Origin: Hymenobacter sp. CRA2
Lineage (GTDB): Bacteria; Bacteroidota; Bacteroidia; Cytophagales; Hymenobacteraceae
Direction of reading: 5' to 3'
Length of the DNA: 64,000 nt
Assembly: GCF_002007105.1 (NCBI RefSeq)
Contig: NZ_MVBC01000002.1
Span: 372,001-436,000 of the forward strand
The notes below the pieces were generated by a model, which saw nothing but the letters and a program-made list of their open reading frames with translations, was not told where the DNA came from and did not search any database. A program made the position numbers and the translations under genes. Of the stretch, positions 44,978 to 62,199 are shown piece by piece; the first letter of the stretch is position 1; each line of letters begins with the position of its first letter.

Positions 44978-46321
44978 ATGCACCTGGTCATCATCGGCAA
45001 CGGCATTGCGGGTGTCACCTGCGCCCAGACCGTGCGCCGCCTGCAGCCCGAGGCGCGCATCACCCTCGTCTCGGACGAAACCGCGCACCACTTCTCGCGC
45101 CCGGCGCTGATGTACCTGTACATGGGGCACCTGCGCTGGCCCGATGTGAAGCCCTTCGAGGATTGGTACTGGTCCGAAAACCGCCTGGAGCTGGTGCACG
45201 ACCGCGCCACCGGCCTCGACGTGGCGAGCAAACAGGTGCATCTGGCCGCCGGCCCCTCCCTCGCCTACGACGCGCTGCTGCTGGCCACCGGCGCCACCAC
45301 GCGCTACTACGGCTGGCCTGGGCAGGAGCTGGCTGGCGTGCAGGGCCTCGTATCCCTGGCCGACGTGGAGCTAATGAGCCAGCAGACGACGAACGTACAG
45401 CAAGCCGTGGTGGTGGGTGGCGGCCTCATCGGGGTGGAACTGGCCGAGATGCTGCGCAGCCGCGGCATCGGCGTCACCCTGCTCGTGCGCGACCGGCACT
45501 ACTGGGGCTCGGTGCTGCCGCCCGAGGAAGCGGCGTTGGTGGATGCCCAGCTGCGGCGCCACGGCGTGCAGGTGCGCTACGGCACGGAGCTGGCCGCGGC
45601 CCTTGGCGACGCGCAAGGCCGGGTGCGGGCCGTGCGCACCAGCGGCGGCGAGGAGCTGCCCTGCCAGTGGCTGGGTATTGCTACCGGTGTCGAGCCCAAC
45701 CTGGCGCTGACCACCGGTACACCCATCGAAACGGACCGCGGCATCTTAGTCGACGACTGGCTGCGTACTTCCGCGCCCGACGTGTACGCGGCCGGCGACT
45801 GCGCGCAGCGGCGGACGCCCCCGCCCGGCGAGGCGGCCATCGAGCCGCTGTGGTACACCGGGCGCATGCAGGGCGAAACGGTGGCCCACACCATCTGCGG
45901 GCAGCCCACCGCTTACCGCCGCGGCCCGTGGTTCAACTCCGCTAAGTTCTTCGACCTCGAATACCAGACTTACGGGCAGGTGCCCGCCCGCCCCGTAGCG
46001 GGCCAAACCAGCTTCTGGTGGCAGCACCCCGGCGGCCATTGCGGCCTGCGCCTGCACTACACCGACGATGCCCAACAAACGCTGCTCGGCGTGAATGCCC
46101 TGGGCCTGCGCCTGCGCCACGACGTGTGCGACCAGTGGTTGCGCGCTGGTGCCTCGGTGCGCGCAGTCATTGAGCAGCTCGGCGCCGCTAATTTTGACCC
46201 CGAATTTTTCCCGCAGCACGAGCCGGCCATTGTGGCCGCCTTCAACACGCACCACCCCAACCACCCGCCGCTGACCCTGCGGCGCCGCAAGGGCCTGCTG
46301 GCCCGTCTGCTCTCTGTATAA
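44978..46321 (+). CDS. FAD-dependent pyridine-nucleotide oxidoreductase
   Basis: A 447-residue two-dinucleotide-fold flavoprotein. FAD site HLVIIGNGIAGVTCAQTVRR (2-21), NAD(P)H site VVVGGGLIGVELAEMLRSRG (about 147-166), and the second FAD motif DVYAAGDCAQ (about 267-276). It resembles rubredoxin/ferredoxin reductases and the N-terminal part of nitrite reductase NirB, but has an extra C-terminal domain (about 310-447). No redox-active CxxC disulfide is seen, so it should hand electrons to an external carrier. A short two-helix protein and a polyferredoxin follow on the same strand, the first only 7 nt away. Confidence 0.87.
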   Translation: MHLVIIGNGIAGVTCAQTVRRLQPEARITLVSDETAHHFSRPALMYLYMGHLRWPDVKPFEDWYWSENRLELVHDRATGLDVASKQVHLAAGPSLAYDALLLATGATTRYYGWPGQELAGVQGLVSLADVELMSQQTTNVQQAVVVGGGLIGVELAEMLRSRGIGVTLLVRDRHYWGSVLPPEEAALVDAQLRRHGVQVRYGTELAAALGDAQGRVRAVRTSGGEELPCQWLGIATGVEPNLALTTGTPIETDRGILVDDWLRTSAPDVYAAGDCAQRRTPPPGEAAIEPLWYTGRMQGETVAHTICGQPTAYRRGPWFNSAKFFDLEYQTYGQVPARPVAGQTSFWWQHPGGHCGLRLHYTDDAQQTLLGVNALGLRLRHDVCDQWLRAGASVRAVIEQLGAANFDPEFFPQHEPAIVAAFNTHHPNHPPLTLRRRKGLLARLLSV

Positions 46322-46328
46322 CCTAGCC

Positions 46329-46565
46329 ATGGCCGACAAACCCGACTACCGCAAGCTCTACCACCCCGGCGCCTTCAATGCCTGGCAATACATTGCCTTC
46401 ACGGGCATCATCATGACGCTGGGCGCCCAGCTGATTCTGGCCGTCATCAAGCAGCCCAAACCCGAGGGCTTCCACTGGCTCTACGCCGTATGGGCCGGCG
46501 TTTTCGTGCTCGGCTCGCTGAGCAACCTCTACGGCAAGCCCGACGACCACCATCACCACCACTAA
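46329..46565 (+). CDS. Two-helix membrane protein with natural polyhistidine tail
   Basis: A 78-residue protein with a hydrophilic N-terminus, two helices (about 21-41, IAFTGIIMTLGAQLILAVI, and 50-66, WLYAVWAGVFVLGSLSNL) and the end GKPDDHHHHH. The five histidines could bind a metal. It starts 7 nt after the oxidoreductase stop and precedes the polyferredoxin by 124 nt, so it probably belongs to the same redox unit, perhaps docking the flavoprotein to the membrane. Family not recognised by name. Confidence 0.82.
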   Translation: MADKPDYRKLYHPGAFNAWQYIAFTGIIMTLGAQLILAVIKQPKPEGFHWLYAVWAGVFVLGSLSNLYGKPDDHHHHH

Positions 46566-46689
46566 TTAAGTAGCGCGGCGCGAGGCCGGCCAAGCAGCCG
46601 CTAAAGCCAAAGCGCATCCTCTGCTTCCCGAGCTTACGAAGTTTCGCGTCAGCACCCAACCCTGGCCCGCGCCACACTCCTTCCATACC

Positions 46690-48042
46690 ATGACCGCCTT
46701 TGCCGCCTATTCCGATCAGCCCCTGGCCTACCCCACTCCCGAAACCTCGCCGACCGAACGCCTGTGGCTGGCGCTGGTGACGCTCGGCCTGCTGGCGGTA
46801 GCCGTGGCCGCGGCGGCTCCGGCGGGCCTGCGCGAGCCGGCCTTCTGGGCCGGGCTGGCGCTGCTGAGCGCGGGCACGGTGGGCTGGAGTTGGTATAAGT
46901 TTGGGCAGCGCCCGGCCGGCGTGCACCACCATTACCTGTGGGCCCGCAGCAGCACCTCGCGCGGCGCGCTGGCCTGGATGGCCGGTATTGCCCTCACCGG
47001 CTTCTACGTGGTGCTCTATTGGTGGCCCGAGTACCTGGAAAACCTCATCCGCCCCCTCGATGGGCTCAGCCAAGCACTGCGGCGCCGGCCCGCCGACCAG
47101 TGGTTTCTCTACGGCACCTTCTATACACTAGCCGTGCTGCTGCTGGGCGTGCGGGCCCTGCTGAAGTACCGCCATTCGCCCTACCACCGGGTGCGTACCC
47201 TGTCGGTGATGTTCTTTCAGCTGGGCTTGGCCTGGCTGCTGCCCGGCGTGCTGCTGGCCCTGCAGCAGCCCGAGTACTACTTCAGCTACTTCTGGCCGCT
47301 GAAGTACGATTACCTGTTTCCCAGCGGCGTCAGCTCTTTGCTCCAAAACGGGCACTTGGGCGTATTCATGGTGTTCTGGGGCGCGTTGATGTCGCTCGTA
47401 GCCACGCCCGTTCTCACGTACTTCCTCGGTAAGCGCTGGTACTGCTCGTGGGTGTGCGGCTGCGGCGGCCTAGCCGAAACTGCCGGCGACCCGTACCGTC
47501 ACCTCAGCGACAAACGCCGCGAGGCCTGGCGCTACGAGGTGAGCATCGTGTACACCGTACTCGGCTTTATCGTCGTGACCACGGCCTTGCTCTGGCTGAA
47601 CACGCTCTGGCACGGCGAGTTGCTGGGCCGCCTCTCCGACGAGTTTTCCCGCACCTACGGCTTCGTTATCGGCTCCATCTTCTCGGGCGTGGTCGGCGTG
47701 GGCTTCTACCCCATTCTGGGCAACCGCGTGTGGTGCCGTTACGGCTGCCCCATGGCGGCCTACCTGGGCCTGCTGCAAAAGCACTTTTCACGTTTCCGCA
47801 TCACCACCAACGGCGGCCAGTGCATCAGCTGCGGCAACTGCTCCAACGTCTGCGAAATGGGCATCGACGTGAAGCAATACGCCCAGCGCGGGGAGCCCAT
47901 CATTCGGGCGGCCTGCGTGGGCTGCGGCATGTGCAGCACGGCCTGCCCGCGCGGGGTGCTGAACCTGGAGAACGGTCCGCGCGAAGGACGCTACCAGCCC
48001 TCCACGTTTATCCACGCGGAGAGCCTGCGGATTCTGTCGTAA
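46690..48042 (+). CDS. Membrane polyferredoxin (NapH/CcoG-like)
   Basis: A 450-residue protein with about seven helices. Cysteine motifs: YCSWVCGCGGLAE at the end of one helix and WCRYGCPMAAYLG at another, as in NapH/NosR-like proteins. Two 4Fe-4S ferredoxin sites follow at the C-terminus: CISCGNCSNVC (about 378-388) and CVGCGMCSTACP (about 411-422). It should carry electrons between the quinone pool or a flavoprotein and a periplasmic or cytoplasmic acceptor. The N-terminal helices lack the heme ligands of NosR. No nap, nos or nrf genes are nearby. Confidence 0.87.
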   Translation: MTAFAAYSDQPLAYPTPETSPTERLWLALVTLGLLAVAVAAAAPAGLREPAFWAGLALLSAGTVGWSWYKFGQRPAGVHHHYLWARSSTSRGALAWMAGIALTGFYVVLYWWPEYLENLIRPLDGLSQALRRRPADQWFLYGTFYTLAVLLLGVRALLKYRHSPYHRVRTLSVMFFQLGLAWLLPGVLLALQQPEYYFSYFWPLKYDYLFPSGVSSLLQNGHLGVFMVFWGALMSLVATPVLTYFLGKRWYCSWVCGCGGLAETAGDPYRHLSDKRREAWRYEVSIVYTVLGFIVVTTALLWLNTLWHGELLGRLSDEFSRTYGFVIGSIFSGVVGVGFYPILGNRVWCRYGCPMAAYLGLLQKHFSRFRITTNGGQCISCGNCSNVCEMGIDVKQYAQRGEPIIRAACVGCGMCSTACPRGVLNLENGPREGRYQPSTFIHAESLRILS

Positions 48043-48072: not shown

Positions 48073-49104
48073 ATGAGGCTTTTTCGTTTGCTGTGCCCGC
48101 TGAGCGCGGCGTTGTTGGTTAGTGGCTGCGCGGTACGCACGCCCAGCAGTGCTTTCGATGGTATGTACAGTACCACCACGGCCCAGCGCCTGCTTCCCGG
48201 CACCGGCGCAGGCACTTACAAGGGCTACCCCGATGACCGGGTGTTGGAGTTTCGCCCCGGTGCGGCCGGCTGCGCCACCGGCCGCGTGCAGCCCCCGCGC
48301 AAAGCCACGCCGCAGTCCGACCTGCCAATTATGCCCGGCATCGTGGCGGTCAGTGGCACGCTGGGTATCGACGAAGCCGAAATTCCCAACCAGGAGTGGC
48401 AGCAGTACCAGCGGCACCAGGAGCAGGCCGGCGTCAAGGCCGATTTGCTCTTGCCGGCGGCTGCGGCGCTGCCGGTGCCGGACTATTACACCGATCCGTT
48501 TTACCGGTATTACCCGGTGGTCGGCATCAGCCGGGAGCAGGCGCTGGCGTTCTGCCGCTGGCGGGGCCGCGTGGTTACCCGGCTGCTAAATGAAAGCCAA
48601 CACACGCCCGACTCGCTCAGCGCCAACTACATCCGCTGCGAATTTCGCCTGCCTACCGAGGCAGAATGGGAACAGGCCGCGGCGTATAGCACCACTACCG
48701 CCGCCTGCCAGGAACTGCCCGTGCACGCAGCCCCCGATGCGGCCGCGTACCTGAAGCGGCGGTCGGGCAGCGGCCAGGATGTGACGCGCATCAAGGCGGA
48801 TATCGAAGCTTACAACCGCCGCCAGCCGGTGCGCTCCGTCATCAACTACCAGCAGGCTGACCCATATTTTCTGCAGCTAGCCACGCCAGTCTACGTCTAC
48901 CAGGGGCCGCCCAACGTGGCGGGGCTGTACCAGATGCTGGGCAACGCGGCCGAAATGGTGCAGGAGCCGGGCATCACGAAGGGTGGCAGCTACCGCGACC
49001 CGCTCGATGCGTGCACTCCGAAAGCTCGGGGCTCGTTTAGCGGCCCTGCTCCTACCGTGGGCTTCCGCTGCGTGGCCGTGGTCAGCCGCCCCAACCGCCG
49101 GTAA
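48073..49104 (+). CDS. SUMF1/FGE-like lipoprotein
   Basis: A 343-residue lipoprotein (LLVSGC, cysteine 19). The FGE/SUMF1-type fold covers about 95-335: DEAEIPNQEWQQYQ, YYPVVGISREQALAFCRWRG, FRLPTEAEWEQAA, NAAEMVQEPGITKGGSYRD and VGFRCVAV. The catalytic copper cysteines of true FGE are not evident, so a structural role like GldJ/GldK gliding lipoproteins is more likely than sulfatase activation. It begins 30 nt after the polyferredoxin gene and may share its transcript. Confidence 0.82.
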   Translation: MRLFRLLCPLSAALLVSGCAVRTPSSAFDGMYSTTTAQRLLPGTGAGTYKGYPDDRVLEFRPGAAGCATGRVQPPRKATPQSDLPIMPGIVAVSGTLGIDEAEIPNQEWQQYQRHQEQAGVKADLLLPAAAALPVPDYYTDPFYRYYPVVGISREQALAFCRWRGRVVTRLLNESQHTPDSLSANYIRCEFRLPTEAEWEQAAAYSTTTAACQELPVHAAPDAAAYLKRRSGSGQDVTRIKADIEAYNRRQPVRSVINYQQADPYFLQLATPVYVYQGPPNVAGLYQMLGNAAEMVQEPGITKGGSYRDPLDACTPKARGSFSGPAPTVGFRCVAVVSRPNRR

Positions 49105-55753: not shown

Positions 55754-55800
55754 GCCCGTTCGCCGCGTTCTTGCCATTTTTGCGCCCAGTTCCGCGCCGC

Positions 55801-56523
55801 ATGTCTTTTCCTCCCCCCGCTTCGCTTCCCTTTATCGACGTCATCATCCCGGCCCACAACGAAGCCCAGAGCATCGGGCGGGTGCTGGCCGACATTCCCG
55901 CGGGCTGGGTGCGCGAGGTCATCGTGGTGGATAACGCCTCTACCGACGACACGGCCACGCCCGCCCGCGCCGGCGGCGCCACCGTGCTGCGCGAAGAGCG
56001 CCCCGGATACGGCCACGCCTGCCTGCGGGGCATGGCCCACTGCTACGCCCGCCCCGCCCACGAGCAGCCAGCCATCATCGTTTTCCTCGACGGGGACTAC
56101 TCCGACTACCCCGAGGAACTGCCCAGCCTCGTGCAGCCTATCTTACGCGAGGGCGTGGACATGGTCATCGGCTCGCGCGCCCTGGGCCAGCGCGAGCGGG
56201 GCGCCATGCTACCGCAGCAAATCTTCGGCAACTGGCTGGCCACTACCCTGCTGCGCCGCCTCTACGGCGCCCGTTTCACCGACCTGGGCCCCTTCCGGGC
56301 CATCCGCGCCGACGCCCTGCGCCGCCTCGACATGCAGGACCAGACCTACGGCTGGACCGTAGAAATGCAACTGAAAGCGGCCCGGCAGGGCCTGCGCTGC
56401 ACCGAGGTACCCGTGCGCTACCGCCGCCGCATCGGCGTATCCAAGATTTCGGGCACCGTGCAGGGCACCCTGGGCGCGGGGTACAAGATATTGTGGACCA
56501 TTTTCCGCTACGCCCGGGGCTAA
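55801..56523 (+). CDS. Glycosyltransferase family 2 (dolichol-phosphate mannosyltransferase-like)
   Basis: A 240-residue GT-A enzyme: FIDVIIPAHNEAQSIGRVLADI, VIVVDNASTDDT, the DxD-like IVFLDGDYSDYPEEL, and the later VPVRYRRRIGVSKISGT. No membrane helix; probably makes polyprenyl-phosphate-linked sugar. ATG at 55801. It is followed after 19 nt by a second glycosyltransferase. Confidence 0.88.
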   Translation: MSFPPPASLPFIDVIIPAHNEAQSIGRVLADIPAGWVREVIVVDNASTDDTATPARAGGATVLREERPGYGHACLRGMAHCYARPAHEQPAIIVFLDGDYSDYPEELPSLVQPILREGVDMVIGSRALGQRERGAMLPQQIFGNWLATTLLRRLYGARFTDLGPFRAIRADALRRLDMQDQTYGWTVEMQLKAARQGLRCTEVPVRYRRRIGVSKISGTVQGTLGAGYKILWTIFRYARG

Positions 56524-56542: not shown

Positions 56543-58030
56543 ATGAAAGGGCTCGAACTTGGTTTGCTGGGGCTGTACGGGCTGTGCCTGCTCTTCGTGC
56601 TGGCGTTCAGCCTCACGCAATGGCGCCTCACGTGGCTGGCCCGCCGCGTGCTGCGCGGCGGCCTGTCCAGCCCCCCGCCCCTGCCAGCCGATACGCAGCG
56701 GTGGCCCCGCGTGACGGTGCAGCTGCCGGTGTACAACGAGCTGAACGTCGTGGAGCGCATCATCGACGCGGCGGCCGCGCTGGACTACCCCGCCGGGCGC
56801 CTGCAGATCCAGGTGCTTGACGATTCTACCGACGAAAGCGTTGCGCTGGCCGCGGCCCGCGTGGCCTGGCACCGGGCCCAGGGCCTCGACATCGAGCACG
56901 TCCGCCGGCCGGATCGGCAGGGCTTCAAGGCCGGAGCCCTGGCCCACGGCCTTGAAGCCGCCACCGGCGAGCTGGTCGCCATTTTCGACGCGGACTTTGT
57001 ACCCGCGCCGGACTTTCTGCAGCGCACCGTGCCGTATTTTCTGGCCGATGAGGGCCTGGGCGTGGTGCAAACCCGCTGGGGTCACCTCAACGAGGACTAT
57101 TCGCTGCTCACTGAGCTGCAGGCTTTCGGGCTGAACGCGCACTTTCTGGTGGAGCAGGTGGGCCGCCACGCCGGGCACCACTTCATCAACTTCAACGGCA
57201 CCGGCGGCGTGTGGCGGCGCAGCTGCATCGAGGACGCCGGCAACTGGCAGGCCGATACGCTCACCGAGGACCTCGACCTGAGCTACCGGGCGCAGCTGCG
57301 CGGCTGGCGCTTTTGCTACCTGCCGGCCGTGGTGGCCCCAGCCGAGTTGCCCGCCCACATGGACGCGCTTCGCTCGCAGCAGCACCGCTGGAACAAGGGC
57401 GGCGCCGAAACGGCCCGCAAGCACCTGCGCCGGGTGTGGACCAGCCCGCATCTGCCGCTGAGCACCAAGCTACACGCCACCTTTCATTTGCTCAACAGCG
57501 CCGTGTTTGTGGCCGTGCTGCTGATGGGCCTGTTGAGCGTGCCGCTGCTCCTGGTGCAAACGCGCCGCCCCGAGCTGACGTGGTTTTTCCGCCTGGCAGG
57601 CCTTTCAGTGCTTAGCCTGACGCCGCTGGTGGGCTACTACCACGCTGCCTGGCGCTGGAATGGCGGCCGGGGCACTGGGCTGCGCTTTCTACCCAAGTTC
57701 CTGCTTTTCCTGTCCATGTCCATGGGCTTGTCCTTGCACAATGCCTGGGCCGTACTCACGGGTCTGGCCGGCCGCTTCACGCCTTTCGTGCGCACGCCTA
57801 AGTCGGGACTGATACGGCGGGGCAGCGGGCTCGGGCGCTGGCGGCGCTACCGCACGGACTCCGTGAGTGGCCAAACGCTACTGGAGGCGCTGCTGGCCTT
57901 GTACTTTGTCGGTGGCATCGGCCTGGCCTTTCACTACGACAACTACGGTCTGCTGCCCTTTCACGTGCTGCTGGCGGTGGGCTACGGCGCCATCGTGTAC
58001 TACAGCCTGCGCGACGCTCGTTCGGCATGA
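56543..58030 (+). CDS. Processive-type membrane glycosyltransferase (cellulose synthase-like GT2)
   Basis: A 495-residue enzyme. One N-terminal helix, then the GT-A core with PRVTVQLPVYNELNVVERIIDA, QVLDDSTDESV, AIFDADFVP, TEDLDLSYRAQLRGW and the processive-type QQHRWNKGGAET. Three to four C-terminal helices follow. Substrate unknown; similar Bacteroidota enzymes extend surface glycolipids or polysaccharides. Its last four bases overlap the start of the next gene (ATGA). Confidence 0.9.
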   Translation: MKGLELGLLGLYGLCLLFVLAFSLTQWRLTWLARRVLRGGLSSPPPLPADTQRWPRVTVQLPVYNELNVVERIIDAAAALDYPAGRLQIQVLDDSTDESVALAAARVAWHRAQGLDIEHVRRPDRQGFKAGALAHGLEAATGELVAIFDADFVPAPDFLQRTVPYFLADEGLGVVQTRWGHLNEDYSLLTELQAFGLNAHFLVEQVGRHAGHHFINFNGTGGVWRRSCIEDAGNWQADTLTEDLDLSYRAQLRGWRFCYLPAVVAPAELPAHMDALRSQQHRWNKGGAETARKHLRRVWTSPHLPLSTKLHATFHLLNSAVFVAVLLMGLLSVPLLLVQTRRPELTWFFRLAGLSVLSLTPLVGYYHAAWRWNGGRGTGLRFLPKFLLFLSMSMGLSLHNAWAVLTGLAGRFTPFVRTPKSGLIRRGSGLGRWRRYRTDSVSGQTLLEALLALYFVGGIGLAFHYDNYGLLPFHVLLAVGYGAIVYYSLRDARSA

Positions 58031-59373
58031 AGCCCCGCTCGCGCACCTTCTGGCTAGCCGGAGCCGCGGCGGCACTGGTTGTCAGCCAGCTCGGCCTGGC
58101 GTATGCCACGCCCCGCTCGCACACCGTGCTACTGCTCGGGCTGTTTGGGCTGGCCCTGGGCGGATACGCCTTGCTGCTGCGCCTACGCCTGCCGTGGCGC
58201 CCGGGCCTGCTGCTGGCGCTGCTGCTGCGCCTGCTATGGCTACCCGCCCTGCCCGCGCTTTCCGATGACTACCACCGCTTCCGCTGGGACGGCATCCTCG
58301 TAGCGGCCGGCCAAAATCCGTTTCAGCACCGCCCCGAGGAATACACCGCGGGCGGGGGCCAGCTGGCCGGCCCGGTAGCCCTCACGGCGGCCCTGTACCA
58401 GCGGCTGAATTCGCCGCGTTACTATTCGGTTTATCCGCCAGTGTGCCAAGCCCTATTCGGCGCGGCGGCGTGGCTGCTGCCGGGCTCCGAACGGGGCCAG
58501 GTGGTGCTGCTGCGACTGGTGCTGCTGCTGGCCGAAGCGGCCACAGCCCTGCTACTGGCACGGCTGCTGCGCCGGTTTCGGCGGCCCGCCGAGCAGGCCC
58601 TGCTGTACCTGCTACACCCGATGGTGGTAGCCGAACTGGTAGGCAATCTGCACTTTGAGGCCTTGGTTATTACTGGCATGCTGACGACCATCTGGCTGCT
58701 GGCGCGCGGCCGGTGGGCGTGGGCGGCCGCGGCCCTGTCCCTGCCCGTGGCCACCAAGCTCACGCCCTTGCTGGCCACGCCGCTGCTGCTGCGCCGGCTG
58801 GGCTGGGCACGCACGGTGGCCTTCGGCGGCTTACTCGCGGTTATACTAGTAGCCGTGTTTGCGCCATTTGCCTCGGCGGAGCTGCTGCGCAACATCGGCC
58901 GCAGCCTTGACCTGTATTTTCATTCCTTCGAGTTCAACGCCAGCGTGTACTACGCGCTGCGCGCCCTGCGGGCCTGGCAACTCGGCTACAACGACATAGC
59001 GCGGCTGGGCACCGTGCTAGCCGCCTGCTCGGTTGTGGGCATTCTAGTATTGGCCGCCCTCGAAAAGCGCCCCAGCCTGGCCACCTTGCCGCGCGCCGCG
59101 CTGCTGGTCTTCACCTTGTACTACCTGCTGGCCACGACAGTACACCCCTGGTACCTGGCCCCCCTGGTGGCCCTCAGCTGTTTTACGGGCTGGTGCTACC
59201 CCGCTACCTGGGCCTCCCTAGCAGCGCTATCCTACGCCACGTACCACACCCCGGCCTACCACGAAAATCTGTGGCTGGTGGCCGCCGAATACGCTGGCGT
59301 AGCCGTAGCCGCTTACTTCGATTGGCACCGGCGCCCGCACGGCTCATCAGCGGAAGAAAGCCACGCGGCTTAG
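58027..59373 (+). CDS. Polyprenyl-sugar-dependent mannosyltransferase-like membrane protein (GT87-like)
   Basis: A 448-residue protein with about ten helices. The loop after the early helices has LSDDYHRFRWDGILVAAGQNPFQHRP, the pattern of GT87-type enzymes using polyprenyl-phosphate mannose. Together with the preceding GT2 genes it looks like a glycolipid or glycan assembly line: synthesis of the lipid-linked donor, extension, then transfer. The overlap with the upstream gene (4 bases) indicates translational coupling. Stops in an interlocked TTAG with the convergent gene. Confidence 0.83.
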   Translation: MKPRSRTFWLAGAAAALVVSQLGLAYATPRSHTVLLLGLFGLALGGYALLLRLRLPWRPGLLLALLLRLLWLPALPALSDDYHRFRWDGILVAAGQNPFQHRPEEYTAGGGQLAGPVALTAALYQRLNSPRYYSVYPPVCQALFGAAAWLLPGSERGQVVLLRLVLLLAEAATALLLARLLRRFRRPAEQALLYLLHPMVVAELVGNLHFEALVITGMLTTIWLLARGRWAWAAAALSLPVATKLTPLLATPLLLRRLGWARTVAFGGLLAVILVAVFAPFASAELLRNIGRSLDLYFHSFEFNASVYYALRALRAWQLGYNDIARLGTVLAACSVVGILVLAALEKRPSLATLPRAALLVFTLYYLLATTVHPWYLAPLVALSCFTGWCYPATWASLAALSYATYHTPAYHENLWLVAAEYAGVAVAAYFDWHRRPHGSSAEESHAA

Positions 59374-60275
59374 TGCTGCCAATACGCGGCGCGGCGCGAG
59401 TCTTTGAGCAGCAGCTGGCGCCCGTCCCAGGTTGTTTGCTTCAGCAGCAGATGGGGGTATTGCTGGTCAAACCAGTACACGTTGTCCTTGCCCTGCGCCA
59501 GGCGCACGGTCACGCGCCAAGCCGGGCGCGGGGCCTCGTTGGGAGCAGCGCGGGCCACCCGAAACTCGGCCCGGTAGCGCACGGGCGCCGGGGCCTGGTT
59601 GGTTTGCTGGGTTTCAAGCACGTTGGCCTCGAACAACGGCTCGTCGTTGAAGCGCAGGCTGCGCAGCGTGTACGGCAGGGCGTCTTCCAGCAGCACATCG
59701 AAGGGGACTTCGTATTGGCCCGTGCCCTGCCCGTCCCAGTAGGAGTTGTAGCTGAGTTGGTACCCGTCGGCATCTGCGGTCAGAGCTTTGAACGTGTTGC
59801 CGCACCACTCCTGCGCGGAGGTCGTCATCTTGTGCAACTGCAGGGGGTCTTCGCGCCGAAAGAACAGCGACGTGAGGTAGTGGTACGGATAGTTGTCGGT
59901 AGGAACCCGGCAGAACTCGTTCACCTTCATCACGGCAAACAAATCCGGGCGCTGGTAGTCGTCGGTCTTGACGTTGAACGCCGCGTTGAAGTCTTCCTTC
60001 ACCGTAATCAGCGTCAGCTCGTACGGCCGGGGCTTCTTGTACACCACGCGCTCCGCGGCGTACGTCGTCACTTCGGCCAGGCCGTCGTCCCACAGCTTGT
60101 GCTGAGCCCAGTTCAGGTTAAAATGCCGGTGCAAGGGCTGCAGCACCGTGGGGCGGGCTTCGTTGGCCGCCGGCTCCGTTTCGGACGGCTCTTGCTGGCA
60201 GCCGCTGCCGACCAGCGCCCCCAGCAAACTCAACGAAACGGCGAGCTTGCCCGCCTGCCACCGATAGCCTTTCAT
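59370..60275 (-). CDS. Secreted lipoprotein of a conserved Bacteroidota family (often named Maf)
   Basis: A 301-residue protein with lipobox VGSGC (cysteine 26). The conserved core includes NWAQHKLWDDGLAEVTTYAAERVVYKKPRPYELTLITVKE, NVKTDDYQRPDLFAVMKVNEFC, PTDNYPYHYLTSLFFRRE and AQEWCGNTFK. Such proteins are often labelled septum formation inhibitor Maf in databases, I believe wrongly, since none of the Maf pyrophosphatase motifs are seen. ATG at 60275 is chosen because a promoter-like TACCTTGC lies just upstream. Confidence 0.8.
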   Translation of the reverse strand: MKGYRWQAGKLAVSLSLLGALVGSGCQQEPSETEPAANEARPTVLQPLHRHFNLNWAQHKLWDDGLAEVTTYAAERVVYKKPRPYELTLITVKEDFNAAFNVKTDDYQRPDLFAVMKVNEFCRVPTDNYPYHYLTSLFFRREDPLQLHKMTTSAQEWCGNTFKALTADADGYQLSYNSYWDGQGTGQYEVPFDVLLEDALPYTLRSLRFNDEPLFEANVLETQQTNQAPAPVRYRAEFRVARAAPNEAPRPAWRVTVRLAQGKDNVYWFDQQYPHLLLKQTTWDGRQLLLKDSRRAAYWQH

Positions 60276-60311
60276 GCGCAGAGATTTTCCGCGCAAGGTA
60301 CGCTTCGTGGC

Positions 60312-60905
60312 TTAGCCGCGCGCCTGCCAGGCCTGCCAATCCTCGGCCGTATCCACGTCTTGCAGCATCGGCAGCAAGGCCACCGACAAGCCAGCCCGCT
60401 CGGCAATGGCGCGGGTGTCGCGCAGCACGGTGGCGGTACTCCACTTAATGCCGGAAAAGAGTTCCGCCCGCGGCTGGCTCAGGCCGAGCAGGTAATAGCC
60501 GCCGTCGTGGGCGGGACCAAGGACCACGTCGTGGGTATGTAGCAGCTGGAAGGCCTCCGTGAGCAGGTCGGTGCTCAGCTGGGGGCAGTCGGTGCCGATG
60601 ATGACCACGCGCAGGGCGCCGGCGTCAAACGCCTCTTCGAACGCGTGCTCCATGCGCTGGCCCAGGTCGGGCGTGGCGGGCTGCACGCGCTGTGGCACAC
60701 CGGGCCAGAGAGGCGCGGCGCCCAGCGGCGGCGTGGCCGCCAGCCAGAGCGTACGCCCCGTCGGCAGGGGCATCACCGTGGCCTGGGTGTGAAAAAGCAG
60801 CTGGCGGTAGGCCGCCAGGGCAGCATCGGGGCCCAAGCCAGCCGCCAGCCGCGTTTTGACTTTCCCCAACTCGGGGTAGCGGGCGAAAATCAGCAGGTGC
60901 TCCAT
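60312..60905 (-). CDS. TIGR04282-type glycosyltransferase (DUF2064)
   Basis: A 197-residue GT-A-like protein: LLIFARYPELGKVKTRLAAGLG at the N-terminus (loop of the nucleotide site), VVIIGTDCPQLSTDLL (DxD-like) and VVLGPAHDGGYYLLGL. Members occur in arsenosugar-biosynthesis clusters and elsewhere. Gene order here: 36 nt upstream of the Maf-like lipoprotein gene on the same strand, and downstream of a rhodanese gene. Confidence 0.87.
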   Translation of the reverse strand: MEHLLIFARYPELGKVKTRLAAGLGPDAALAAYRQLLFHTQATVMPLPTGRTLWLAATPPLGAAPLWPGVPQRVQPATPDLGQRMEHAFEEAFDAGALRVVIIGTDCPQLSTDLLTEAFQLLHTHDVVLGPAHDGGYYLLGLSQPRAELFSGIKWSTATVLRDTRAIAERAGLSVALLPMLQDVDTAEDWQAWQARG

Positions 60906-61016: not shown

Positions 61017-61541
61017 TCAGTTATAGGCTTTTTCGCCCCGGGTGAGCCACGCGCCCCACAACGCCGAATACGGGTGCACCCGCTGCGTCGGGCCGTGGGC
61101 GTCTACCAGCGGCCGGGCTTCGTTGGCCCACTGAAAAAGGCCGCCGTACAGGTTGCGCACGTCGCGGAACCCCAAAGCCTTCAGCTGCTCCCCGATCCGC
61201 TCCGACCGCACGCCCACCGAGCAGTATACTACTACGGGCTGGTCGCGGGAAAGGTCGCGCACAGCTTCTGGATTAAACGAGTCGTAATCGACAAAACGGG
61301 CCCCGGCCAAGTGGCTCACCTGGTACTCGGCCGGGGTACGCGTGTCGAGCACCGTCAGCTGGGGCTGCTGCTGGCGCAGCTTCGCCAGCTCCCCAGCCGA
61401 CAGCGTCGGCACCGAGTTTTTGTACATCGTCTTGAGTAAGGCCGCGTAGGCGGGCGTTACCCGGTTGTCGGGCGTCGTTTGGGCGGAGCCGCAGCCCACC
61501 AATGCCAGCAACGCCGACCACATCAGCAATAAGCGTTTCAA
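61017..61541 (-). CDS. Rhodanese-like lipoprotein
   Basis: A 174-residue lipoprotein (LVGC, cysteine 17) with one rhodanese domain: LTVLDTRTPAEYQVSHLAGARFVDYDSF and the active-site loop VVYCSVGVRSERIGEQL (catalytic cysteine near 108), ending NLYGGLFQWANEARPL. Probably handles sulfur or redox chemistry in the envelope. A 12-bp hairpin lies in its leader at 61577-61604. Confidence 0.88.
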   Translation of the reverse strand: MKRLLLMWSALLALVGCGSAQTTPDNRVTPAYAALLKTMYKNSVPTLSAGELAKLRQQQPQLTVLDTRTPAEYQVSHLAGARFVDYDSFNPEAVRDLSRDQPVVVYCSVGVRSERIGEQLKALGFRDVRNLYGGLFQWANEARPLVDAHGPTQRVHPYSALWGAWLTRGEKAYN

Positions 61542-61860: not shown

Positions 61861-62199
61861 TTACATGCTGAGGTCCTGCGCCTTGTTCATCATCTGCACC
61901 CCGTGCACGAGCACTGCTCCCCCTTTAATGGCCGCTGCTACGTGCACAGCTTCCATCATCTGGGCTTCGTCGGCACCTTTCTGCAGCGAGTCGGTGGTGT
62001 AGGCGTCGATGCAGTACGGGCACTGCACGGCGTGGGCTACGGCCAGGGCAATGAGGGCCTTCTCGCGTTCCGACAGGGCTCCTTCCTTGAATACCTCGCC
62101 GTAGTAATCGAAAAACTTGCGGCCCATTTCGGCCTGCCACTCGGTGATGCGGCCAAACTTGGCCAGATCGGCCGGATTGTAGTAGGTGCTCTTTTCCAT
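61861..62199 (-). CDS. Arsenosugar-biosynthesis-type CMD (AhpD-like) protein
   Basis: A 112-residue carboxymuconolactone decarboxylase-family protein. It reads FFDYYGEVFKEGALSEREKALIALAVAHAVQCPYCIDAYTTDSL and then AVHVAAAIKGGAVLVHGVQMM. The AhpD CxxC pair is in CPYC (near residue 64). The match to the arsenosugar biosynthesis-associated peroxidase-like protein family is what I remember; the call depends on that. ATG at 62199. The arsenosugar radical-SAM and methyltransferase genes are not in the window. Confidence 0.8.
   Translation of the reverse strand: MEKSTYYNPADLAKFGRITEWQAEMGRKFFDYYGEVFKEGALSEREKALIALAVAHAVQCPYCIDAYTTDSLQKGADEAQMMEAVHVAAAIKGGAVLVHGVQMMNKAQDLSM

Follow-up and report, generated by a model that had tools for sequence, protein, structure and literature searches.

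A flavoprotein/polyferredoxin gene pair of Hymenobacter sp. CRA2, its wide distribution as an apparent NAD(P)H membrane system and its recurrent glycosylation/organoarsenical gene neighbourhood

Background

Membrane ferredoxins of the NapH type exchange electrons with quinol and are known mainly as the quinol-side parts of respiratory reductases. NapH and MauN carry two CX3CP motifs; NosR is defined by an N-terminal FMN-binding domain and by the presence of NosZ in the genome; CcoG/RdxA/FixG proteins score over the cut-off of Fer4_18 and end with an immunoglobulin (Ig)-like FixG domain. CcoG, itself a polyferredoxin of the membrane, reduces copper. The flavoprotein subunits of the AorC/PadH type work with 4Fe-4S subunits in soluble complexes, without a membrane partner. 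We analyzed a stretch of 64,000 nucleotides of Hymenobacter sp. CRA2 (NCBI RefSeq assembly GCF_002007105.1, contig NZ_MVBC01000002.1, positions 372,001 to 436,000; hereafter the window), in which a flavin adenine dinucleotide (FAD)/NAD(P)H flavoprotein, a small membrane protein with a histidine tail and a polyferredoxin are encoded in succession. The flavoprotein and the polyferredoxin form an obligate pair, a unit of two genes and not of three. This pair is a real and widespread NAD(P)H-polyferredoxin membrane system, and no paper describing it was found among the literature matches listed, in part, for these proteins.

Comparison with described redox proteins

The polyferredoxin (450 amino acids, 46690..48042 of the window, + strand), the acceptor half of the pair, is an integral membrane protein according to Pfam, alignment and hydropathy. 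Pfam reports Fer4_9 and Fer4_5, and neither an FMN-binding domain nor FixG_C is listed. Like NapH/MauN (TIGR02163) it combines membrane helices and a pair of cysteine motifs with a 2[4Fe-4S] domain at the C-terminus, and TIGR02163 is its best NCBIfam match (E=3e-18), with a score of 66.2 bits that remains below the cut-off of 213. The differences concern its length (450 amino acids versus 255 positions in the NapH/MauN model), its obligate NAD(P)H flavoprotein partner, and its motifs: the first one, CX3CXC (252, 256, 258), lacks proline and the second is CX3CP (C349-X3-C353-P), unlike the two CX3CP of NapH/MauN.

A previous reading of the window from its sequence only (hereafter the sequence-only reading) had seen no nitrate or nitrous oxide reductase genes nearby. 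In the whole genome, the NosZ model TIGR04246 has no match and the NapA model none above its cut-off (138 bits for the best piece, cut-off 931), and on these two results a NapH or NosR role was dropped. Judged by such features, the polyferredoxin falls outside NapH/MauN (TIGR02163 below cut-off, a different first motif, no NapA passing its threshold), outside NosR (no FMN-binding Pfam domain listed, no TIGR04246 match in the genome) and outside CcoG/RdxA/FixG (a Fer4_18 score of 16.8 bits, under the cut-off of 27, and no FixG_C listed). An 801-amino-acid frame located elsewhere in the genome (G000:C40:6234-8423) gives three separate partial matches to the NapA model that stay under its cut-off, and is perhaps an assimilatory nitrate reductase.

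Two CX2CX2CX3C sites, already recognized by the sequence-only reading, are located at 378-388 and 409-419; in an alignment of 50 sequences their cysteines, and indeed all 13 cysteines of the polyferredoxin, are invariant. Hydropathy combined with charge places these 13 residues in lysine- and arginine-rich loops, and the cysteine loops are predicted to be cytoplasmic. The seven helices announced previously agree with the seven transmembrane segments found by a hydropathy scan of the window protein; two homologues have eight segments, and the AlphaFold model has more than seven long helices.

The flavoprotein (447 amino acids, 44978..46321, + strand) was assigned to the ferredoxin-reductase (BphA4/TodA) type by Pfam, AlphaFold and Foldseek. 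It contains a Pyr_redox_2 domain (E=4.6e-53), and SRPALMY occupies the cysteine position of disulfide reductases. Because this stretch is free of cysteine, the protein has no redox disulfide, as had been noticed from the sequence. Its AlphaFold model has a predicted local distance difference test (pLDDT) score of 94.7, and a Foldseek search gave TodA (4emi/3ef6) as the best match (E=9.3e-38 and TMt 0.86 for 4emi), followed by BphA4-type and putidaredoxin reductases among others. The Pyr_redox_2 domain, the lack of a redox disulfide and the fold match all characterize it as BphA4-like. It shares the fold, the FAD and NAD(P)H motifs and the absence of a disulfide with the BphA4, TodA and rubredoxin reductases, and differs from them by its membrane 4Fe-4S polyferredoxin partner. 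It also departs from the BphA4/TodA type by an arginine beside the place of the acidic residue of 3lxd and by its own motifs, WYTG and NSAKFF...EYQTYG, conserved in its family. The AorC/PadH-type subunits (8c0z, NF045765), which are NADH flavoproteins, have the same fold.

Pairing and natural fusion

The three genes of the window are all on the + strand, in agreement with the sequence-only reading, and all end in TAA; the gaps are 7 nt between flavoprotein and small protein, as had been read, and 124 nt between small protein and polyferredoxin. Their distribution was analyzed in a family-level sample of 150 genomes, taken as Hymenobacteraceae, and a phylum-level sample of 198 genomes, taken as Bacteroidota in the GTDB sense, both ranks being judged from the relatives. 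Phylum-level thresholds were E<=1e-30 for the polyferredoxin, E<=1e-60 for the flavoprotein and E<=1e-40 for ArsS, a radical S-adenosylmethionine (SAM) enzyme discussed below. Loci and genomes are designated by L and G numbers.

The polyferredoxin is present in 52 of the 198 phylum genomes and the flavoprotein in 43. All 43 flavoprotein genomes fall among the 44 with an unfused polyferredoxin, and the 44th (G292) has a flavoprotein of 33% identity directly upstream of the polyferredoxin (L173); the other 154 genomes have no flavoprotein match at E<=1e-60. In four genomes (G162, G183, G279 and G337, the first three from one genus) the two genes are on different contigs, so that the link between them is more than adjacency. 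Among named contigs, 69 of 74 loci have the flavoprotein gene upstream on the same strand, no more than 700 bp away (exceptions: L086, L112, L136, L149 and L150). Polyferredoxin open reading frames that are not on the + strand, or that begin closer than 1.5 kb to where the locus starts, are excluded from this count. The start of the polyferredoxin overlaps the stop of the flavoprotein by a few bases in L066 (1216), L068 (3006), L071 (3009), L061 (3015) and L070 (1462), as in translationally coupled genes.

Orthologues of the polyferredoxin (49-88% identity) occur within the family and the phylum and also in several further phyla, far above chance, and no plasmid-borne copy was found at E<=1e-30. 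The source genome, a 5.9 Mb assembly, has a single match at E<=0.001; among named organisms, Solirubrum puertoriconensis has the most similar polyferredoxin (L079, 83% identity). A wider homologue set comprises the best 80 of at least 596 stretches (591 confirmed), many from metagenome-assembled genomes. The taxa among these best 80 loci include Hymenobacter, Pontibacter, Algoriphagus, other Bacteroidota, Rhodothermales, Calditrichaceae and Ignavibacteria, as well as Dadabacteria, Gemmatimonadetes, Thermodesulfobacteriota, Phycisphaerae, Sulfidibacter and Methylacidiphilum.

The eight other polyferredoxin genomes of the phylum sample contain a distant polyferredoxin (34-37% identity) within open frames of 797-910 amino acids, and none of them has a separate flavoprotein at E<=1e-60. 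Seven of the eight were inspected (L159-L164 and L177): all are single chains, with an N-terminal flavoprotein followed by the polyferredoxin (Pfam on two of them). These fusions (for instance L159:3988-6465, L162:4176-6506 and L164:3310-5685) would combine the polyferredoxin with a permuted, thioredoxin-reductase-like flavoprotein. In L162 the flavoprotein part is closest to YpdA/thioredoxin reductases; its residues 1-~76 align with the FAD segment found at the C-terminus of disulfide reductases, whose N-terminal and NADPH parts align with residues ~87-350. Because these segments align in swapped order, the fused domain is apparently circularly permuted, with the FAD GD-motif at the N-terminus; in L159 the N-terminal match is weak (E=0.014). 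The small membrane NAD(P)H system proposed by the sequence-only reading is thus retained for the flavoprotein and the polyferredoxin, on the strength of co-occurrence, adjacency and fusions, and the His-tailed protein has to be removed from it.

This 78-amino-acid membrane protein (46329..46565, + strand), which ends with DDHHHHH, lies between the pair genes in the window and matches nothing in Pfam or NCBIfam. Its length and tail are as previously described; of its two reported helices, one is a clear transmembrane segment (22-40) and the second is under the hydropathy threshold. Nine aligned sequences (72-78 amino acids) share 14 invariant positions and all have the His tail. Its location, 7 nt from the flavoprotein gene here and between the two pair genes in 29 of the 30 family loci that score best (L001-L030), could designate it as the third subunit of a trio. 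The distribution of the gene makes such a trio extremely improbable and refutes the protein as an obligate subunit. It is found in 150 of 150 family genomes (a single match in 149) versus 117 for the polyferredoxin, the latter count being obtained from 126 genomes at E<=0.001 minus 9 with matches at E about 1e-4 only. The 33 genomes without a strong polyferredoxin match all keep it (e.g. L031, L032, L034-L037, L044-L047, L049). Of 20 regions around the small gene, selected in part for a polyferredoxin that is missing or located at another place, 17 show it without the pair. L168-L170 do so too, their genomes having the polyferredoxin at another place. Conversely, the pair has no adjoining small gene in L171, L172 and L026, and the flanks of L051-L078 contain a match only in L051. 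The co-occurrence of three genes envisaged in the sequence-only reading therefore holds for two of them and fails for the third. The His-tailed protein is a real protein encoded by a separate core gene of the family, and probably lies outside the redox module; that all these genomes keep it points to a core role, with metal binding as one possibility.

Gene neighbourhood

Downstream of the pair, between 55.8 and 62.2 kb, the window contains part of a gene set related to glycosylation and organoarsenicals. Three glycosyltransferase (GT) genes are on the + strand: a GT2 enzyme resembling AglJ and polyprenyl-phosphate hexose synthases (GTc2, 55771..56523; TIGR04182 at 120 bits, under the cut-off of 325), a membrane GT2 enzyme of cellulose-synthase-like type (GTc3, 56543..58030; NCBIfam matches all below cut-offs) and a GT87-like membrane enzyme (58027..59373; Pfam GT87 at 27.0 bits, cut-off 25). 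They are followed on the - strand by c13 (59370..60296), a family without Pfam or NCBIfam match, considered a lipoprotein by eye, which co-occurs with the polyferredoxin; by a TIGR04282-type gene (60312..60905), called arsenosugar biosynthesis glycosyltransferase in NCBIfam and identified by its match to a homologue in L137; by a rhodanese-domain protein of the same set (61017..61541; Pfam Rhodanese); and by a match to a TIGR04169-type protein, arsenosugar-associated and peroxidase-like (61864..62187, ends approximate), with 69% identity to the L137 protein that passes TIGR04169. The L137 proteins are over the NCBIfam cut-offs for ArsS (TIGR04167, 451 versus 300 bits), TIGR04282 (205 versus 134) and TIGR04169 (190 versus 120). 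The source genome has its ArsS on a different contig (G000:C11; locus L189), where a DUF547 match and an ArsM-like match of low identity (27%) adjoin it. A passage of PMC12159101 that cites the ArsS paper mentions a radical-SAM enzyme adenosylating arsenic in oxo-arsenosugar biosynthesis.

The set recurring beside the pair or the fusion consists of DUF547 (Pfam), ArsS, TIGR04282, TIGR04169, two GT2 enzymes, the GT87-like enzyme and c13. This ArsS/GT/DUF547 context is beyond what the sequence-only reading had expected. The gene order varies: TIGR04169-ArsS-TIGR04282-flavoprotein-polyferredoxin in L173, L175 and L176; flavoprotein-polyferredoxin-TIGR04169-ArsS-GT2 in L174; fusion-TIGR04283-TIGR04282-DUF547-TIGR04169-ArsS-GT2 in L159 and L177; DUF547-flavoprotein-polyferredoxin-GT2-GT2-c13-GT87 in L180 and L181. 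Relatives of GTc3 are directly 3' of the pair in L146, L154, L157, L180 and L181. Outside the phylum, in Methylacidiphilum (L147), ArsS, GT, ArsM-like and PiT-like genes are near the pair, the last two below NCBIfam cut-offs, and in Phycisphaerae (L141) DUF547 and a PiT-like gene are. ArsS-TIGR04282-TIGR04169 arsenosugar sets thus share a neighbourhood with the pair or fusion in several lineages; the titles and abstract openings of the arsenosugar-set papers among the matches listed name no membrane redox pair as a member. Metal transporters of the ATP-binding cassette (ABC) type (cluster c15, 9 loci) were dropped as recurrent neighbours, the ABC ATPases being of differing kinds in the loci read (L112, L133 and L153). 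Response regulators and sigma factors were set aside as too general.

ArsS is present in 80 of the 198 phylum genomes, and in 34 of them together with the polyferredoxin versus 21 expected (Fisher p=3e-5); a hand count places it within 25 kb of the polyferredoxin in 12 of these 34. In the family it occurs in 103 of 117 polyferredoxin genomes versus 17 of 33 others; counted by hand, 32 of these 103 genomes with both have the two no more than about 21 kb apart. For c13 the phylum figures are 30 of 52 polyferredoxin genomes versus 3 of 146 others, 9 of these 30 having the two at most 12 kb apart by hand count, and the family figures 60 of 117 versus 5 of 33. In L165 and L166, c13 adjoins a polyferredoxin that has no flavoprotein neighbour. 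Two same-genus genomes, G004 and G015, lack both the polyferredoxin and c13; their locus keeps the order small protein-TIGR04282-ArsS-TIGR04169 and has no flavoprotein or GT gene, these two having been sought at the locus only. This comparison makes the GT/c13 part of the set a likelier partner of the pair than ArsS.

Proposed function and alternatives

The donor coenzyme was considered from the flavoprotein residues V/I170-R171-[E/D]172, located where the second strand of the NAD(P) domain ends. R171 is present in 46 of 46 flavoproteins, and 3lxd has E-A at the 170-171 position. The fold matches include E175/T176R/Q177 mutants of BphA4, and we take the position of T176R as the same place as R171. 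Judging from PDB titles, T176R-type mutants were reportedly made to switch BphA4 to NADPH. An NAD kinase-like gene (named by eye) is divergent from the pair in L185-L187, L104 and L105 (Rhodothermales) and L131, and from the fusion in L162; it was matched in 7 of 54 loci outside the family. These 54 are the loci of the wider set that remain when 26 grouped with the window's family are left out; 39 are longer than 12 kb, and an earlier neighbour clustering had assigned L102 and L154 to the opposite group. We lean to NADPH as the donor because of the invariant R171, the T176R-type BphA4 variants and the neighbouring NAD kinase-like gene.

We see about an even chance that the pair is a two-component, membrane-anchored NADPH dehydrogenase, carrying electrons from FAD to [4Fe-4S] clusters and on to the membrane, at least partly for the pathway of the gene set. 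The cytosolic BphA4-type flavoprotein would take a hydride from NADPH onto FAD, as its fold and invariant arginine suggest. FADH2 would then reduce the polyferredoxin's two C-terminal [4Fe-4S] clusters one electron at a time, a step consistent with obligate pairing and natural fusions, and from there electrons may move to the cluster or clusters bound by the CX3CXC and CX3CP motifs on the cytoplasmic side of the membrane. Gene context suggests that, at least in many lineages, these electrons would be used at the membrane by the pathway of this conserved gene set, possibly the making of a lipid-linked glycan or a glycosylated organoarsenical; candidate acceptors are a lipid-linked intermediate, ArsS itself or menaquinone. 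The His-tailed protein would be no subunit of this enzyme. Glycosylation or organoarsenical synthesis is the best-supported setting of the pair. A bolder proposal, which we hold only tentatively, is that of a membrane redox enzyme not described before, which exists in two builds with different flavoproteins: a BphA4-type partner protein in one, and a fused, circularly permuted thioredoxin-reductase-like domain in the other. It would use NADPH for a reductive step of a lipid-linked glycan or organoarsenical pathway across several phyla, the CX3CXC/CX3CP cluster being the catalytic or relay site in the membrane.

Several results weigh against these proposals. The AlphaFold model of the polyferredoxin is weak (pLDDT 71) and too poor for distances, and a fold search with it gave no PDB match at E<=0.001. 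The preference for NADPH depends on two residues, and 9li3, named Ferredoxin--NAD(+) reductase, carries the same V-R. The co-occurrence counts of ArsS and c13 ignore phylogeny; most phylum-level c13 matches are 25-37% identical and may include paralogues, the source genome has a second c13 (30% identical, contig C3), and 5 of the 33 family genomes without polyferredoxin retain c13. No ArsS match at E<=1e-40 exists in 18 of the 52 polyferredoxin genomes. Outside the family, 43 of the 54 loci have none of ArsS, TIGR04282, TIGR04169, DUF547, GTc3, GT87-like and c13 in the fetched flank, and 11 have any. Because the pair also occurs in other contexts, the link with the cluster may be one use among several, or a matter of shared inheritance.

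The same 43 loci, together with the fact that no other neighbour recurs in all loci, fit a general NAD(P)H:menaquinone oxidoreductase that feeds the quinone pool and is only incidentally associated with the cluster. The exchange of electrons with quinol by NapH-type ferredoxins would agree with such an enzyme. We consider it possible, if rather doubtful: ArsS/GT neighbourhoods are repeated in differing gene orders, even with the fused form, and the polyferredoxin and c13 are both missing in G004 and G015, with the GT genes absent from the locus. Radical-SAM enzymes require a one-electron donor, and ArsS is within a few kb of the pair in several lineages (e.g. L135, L137, L147, L173-L177), so that its [4Fe-4S] cluster could be what the polyferredoxin reduces. 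This is unlikely, since a soluble enzyme needs no membrane protein, since the two are found apart both in the 18 polyferredoxin genomes without ArsS and in 46 of the 80 ArsS genomes, and since G004 and G015 retain ArsS without polyferredoxin. Copper reduction by CcoG and the ArsM-like and PiT-like genes of L147 could also suggest reduction of a metal ion or an arsenical at the membrane. Such a metal or metalloid reductase is highly unlikely, as no metal-handling gene recurs among the neighbourhoods read, which are part of the total, and as the other polyferredoxin matches of the family, which we take to be CcoG, are far weaker (E about 1e-4).

In every sampled genome a NapH-type protein is tied to an NAD(P)H flavoprotein, through two different flavoprotein subfamilies, and it recurs here beside biosynthetic and not respiratory genes. 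If the two-component NADPH dehydrogenase is real, it would represent a new membrane route of NADPH electron delivery in bacterial physiology, and it would give arsenosugar/arsenolipid-type gene sets a concrete missing redox step to be sought.

Directly 3' of the polyferredoxin, the window also encodes a GldK/GldJ-like lipoprotein with an FGE-sulfatase domain (48073-49104, below the GldK cut-off). A gene of this type is likewise located 3' in L003, L004, L007, L015 and L019-L022.

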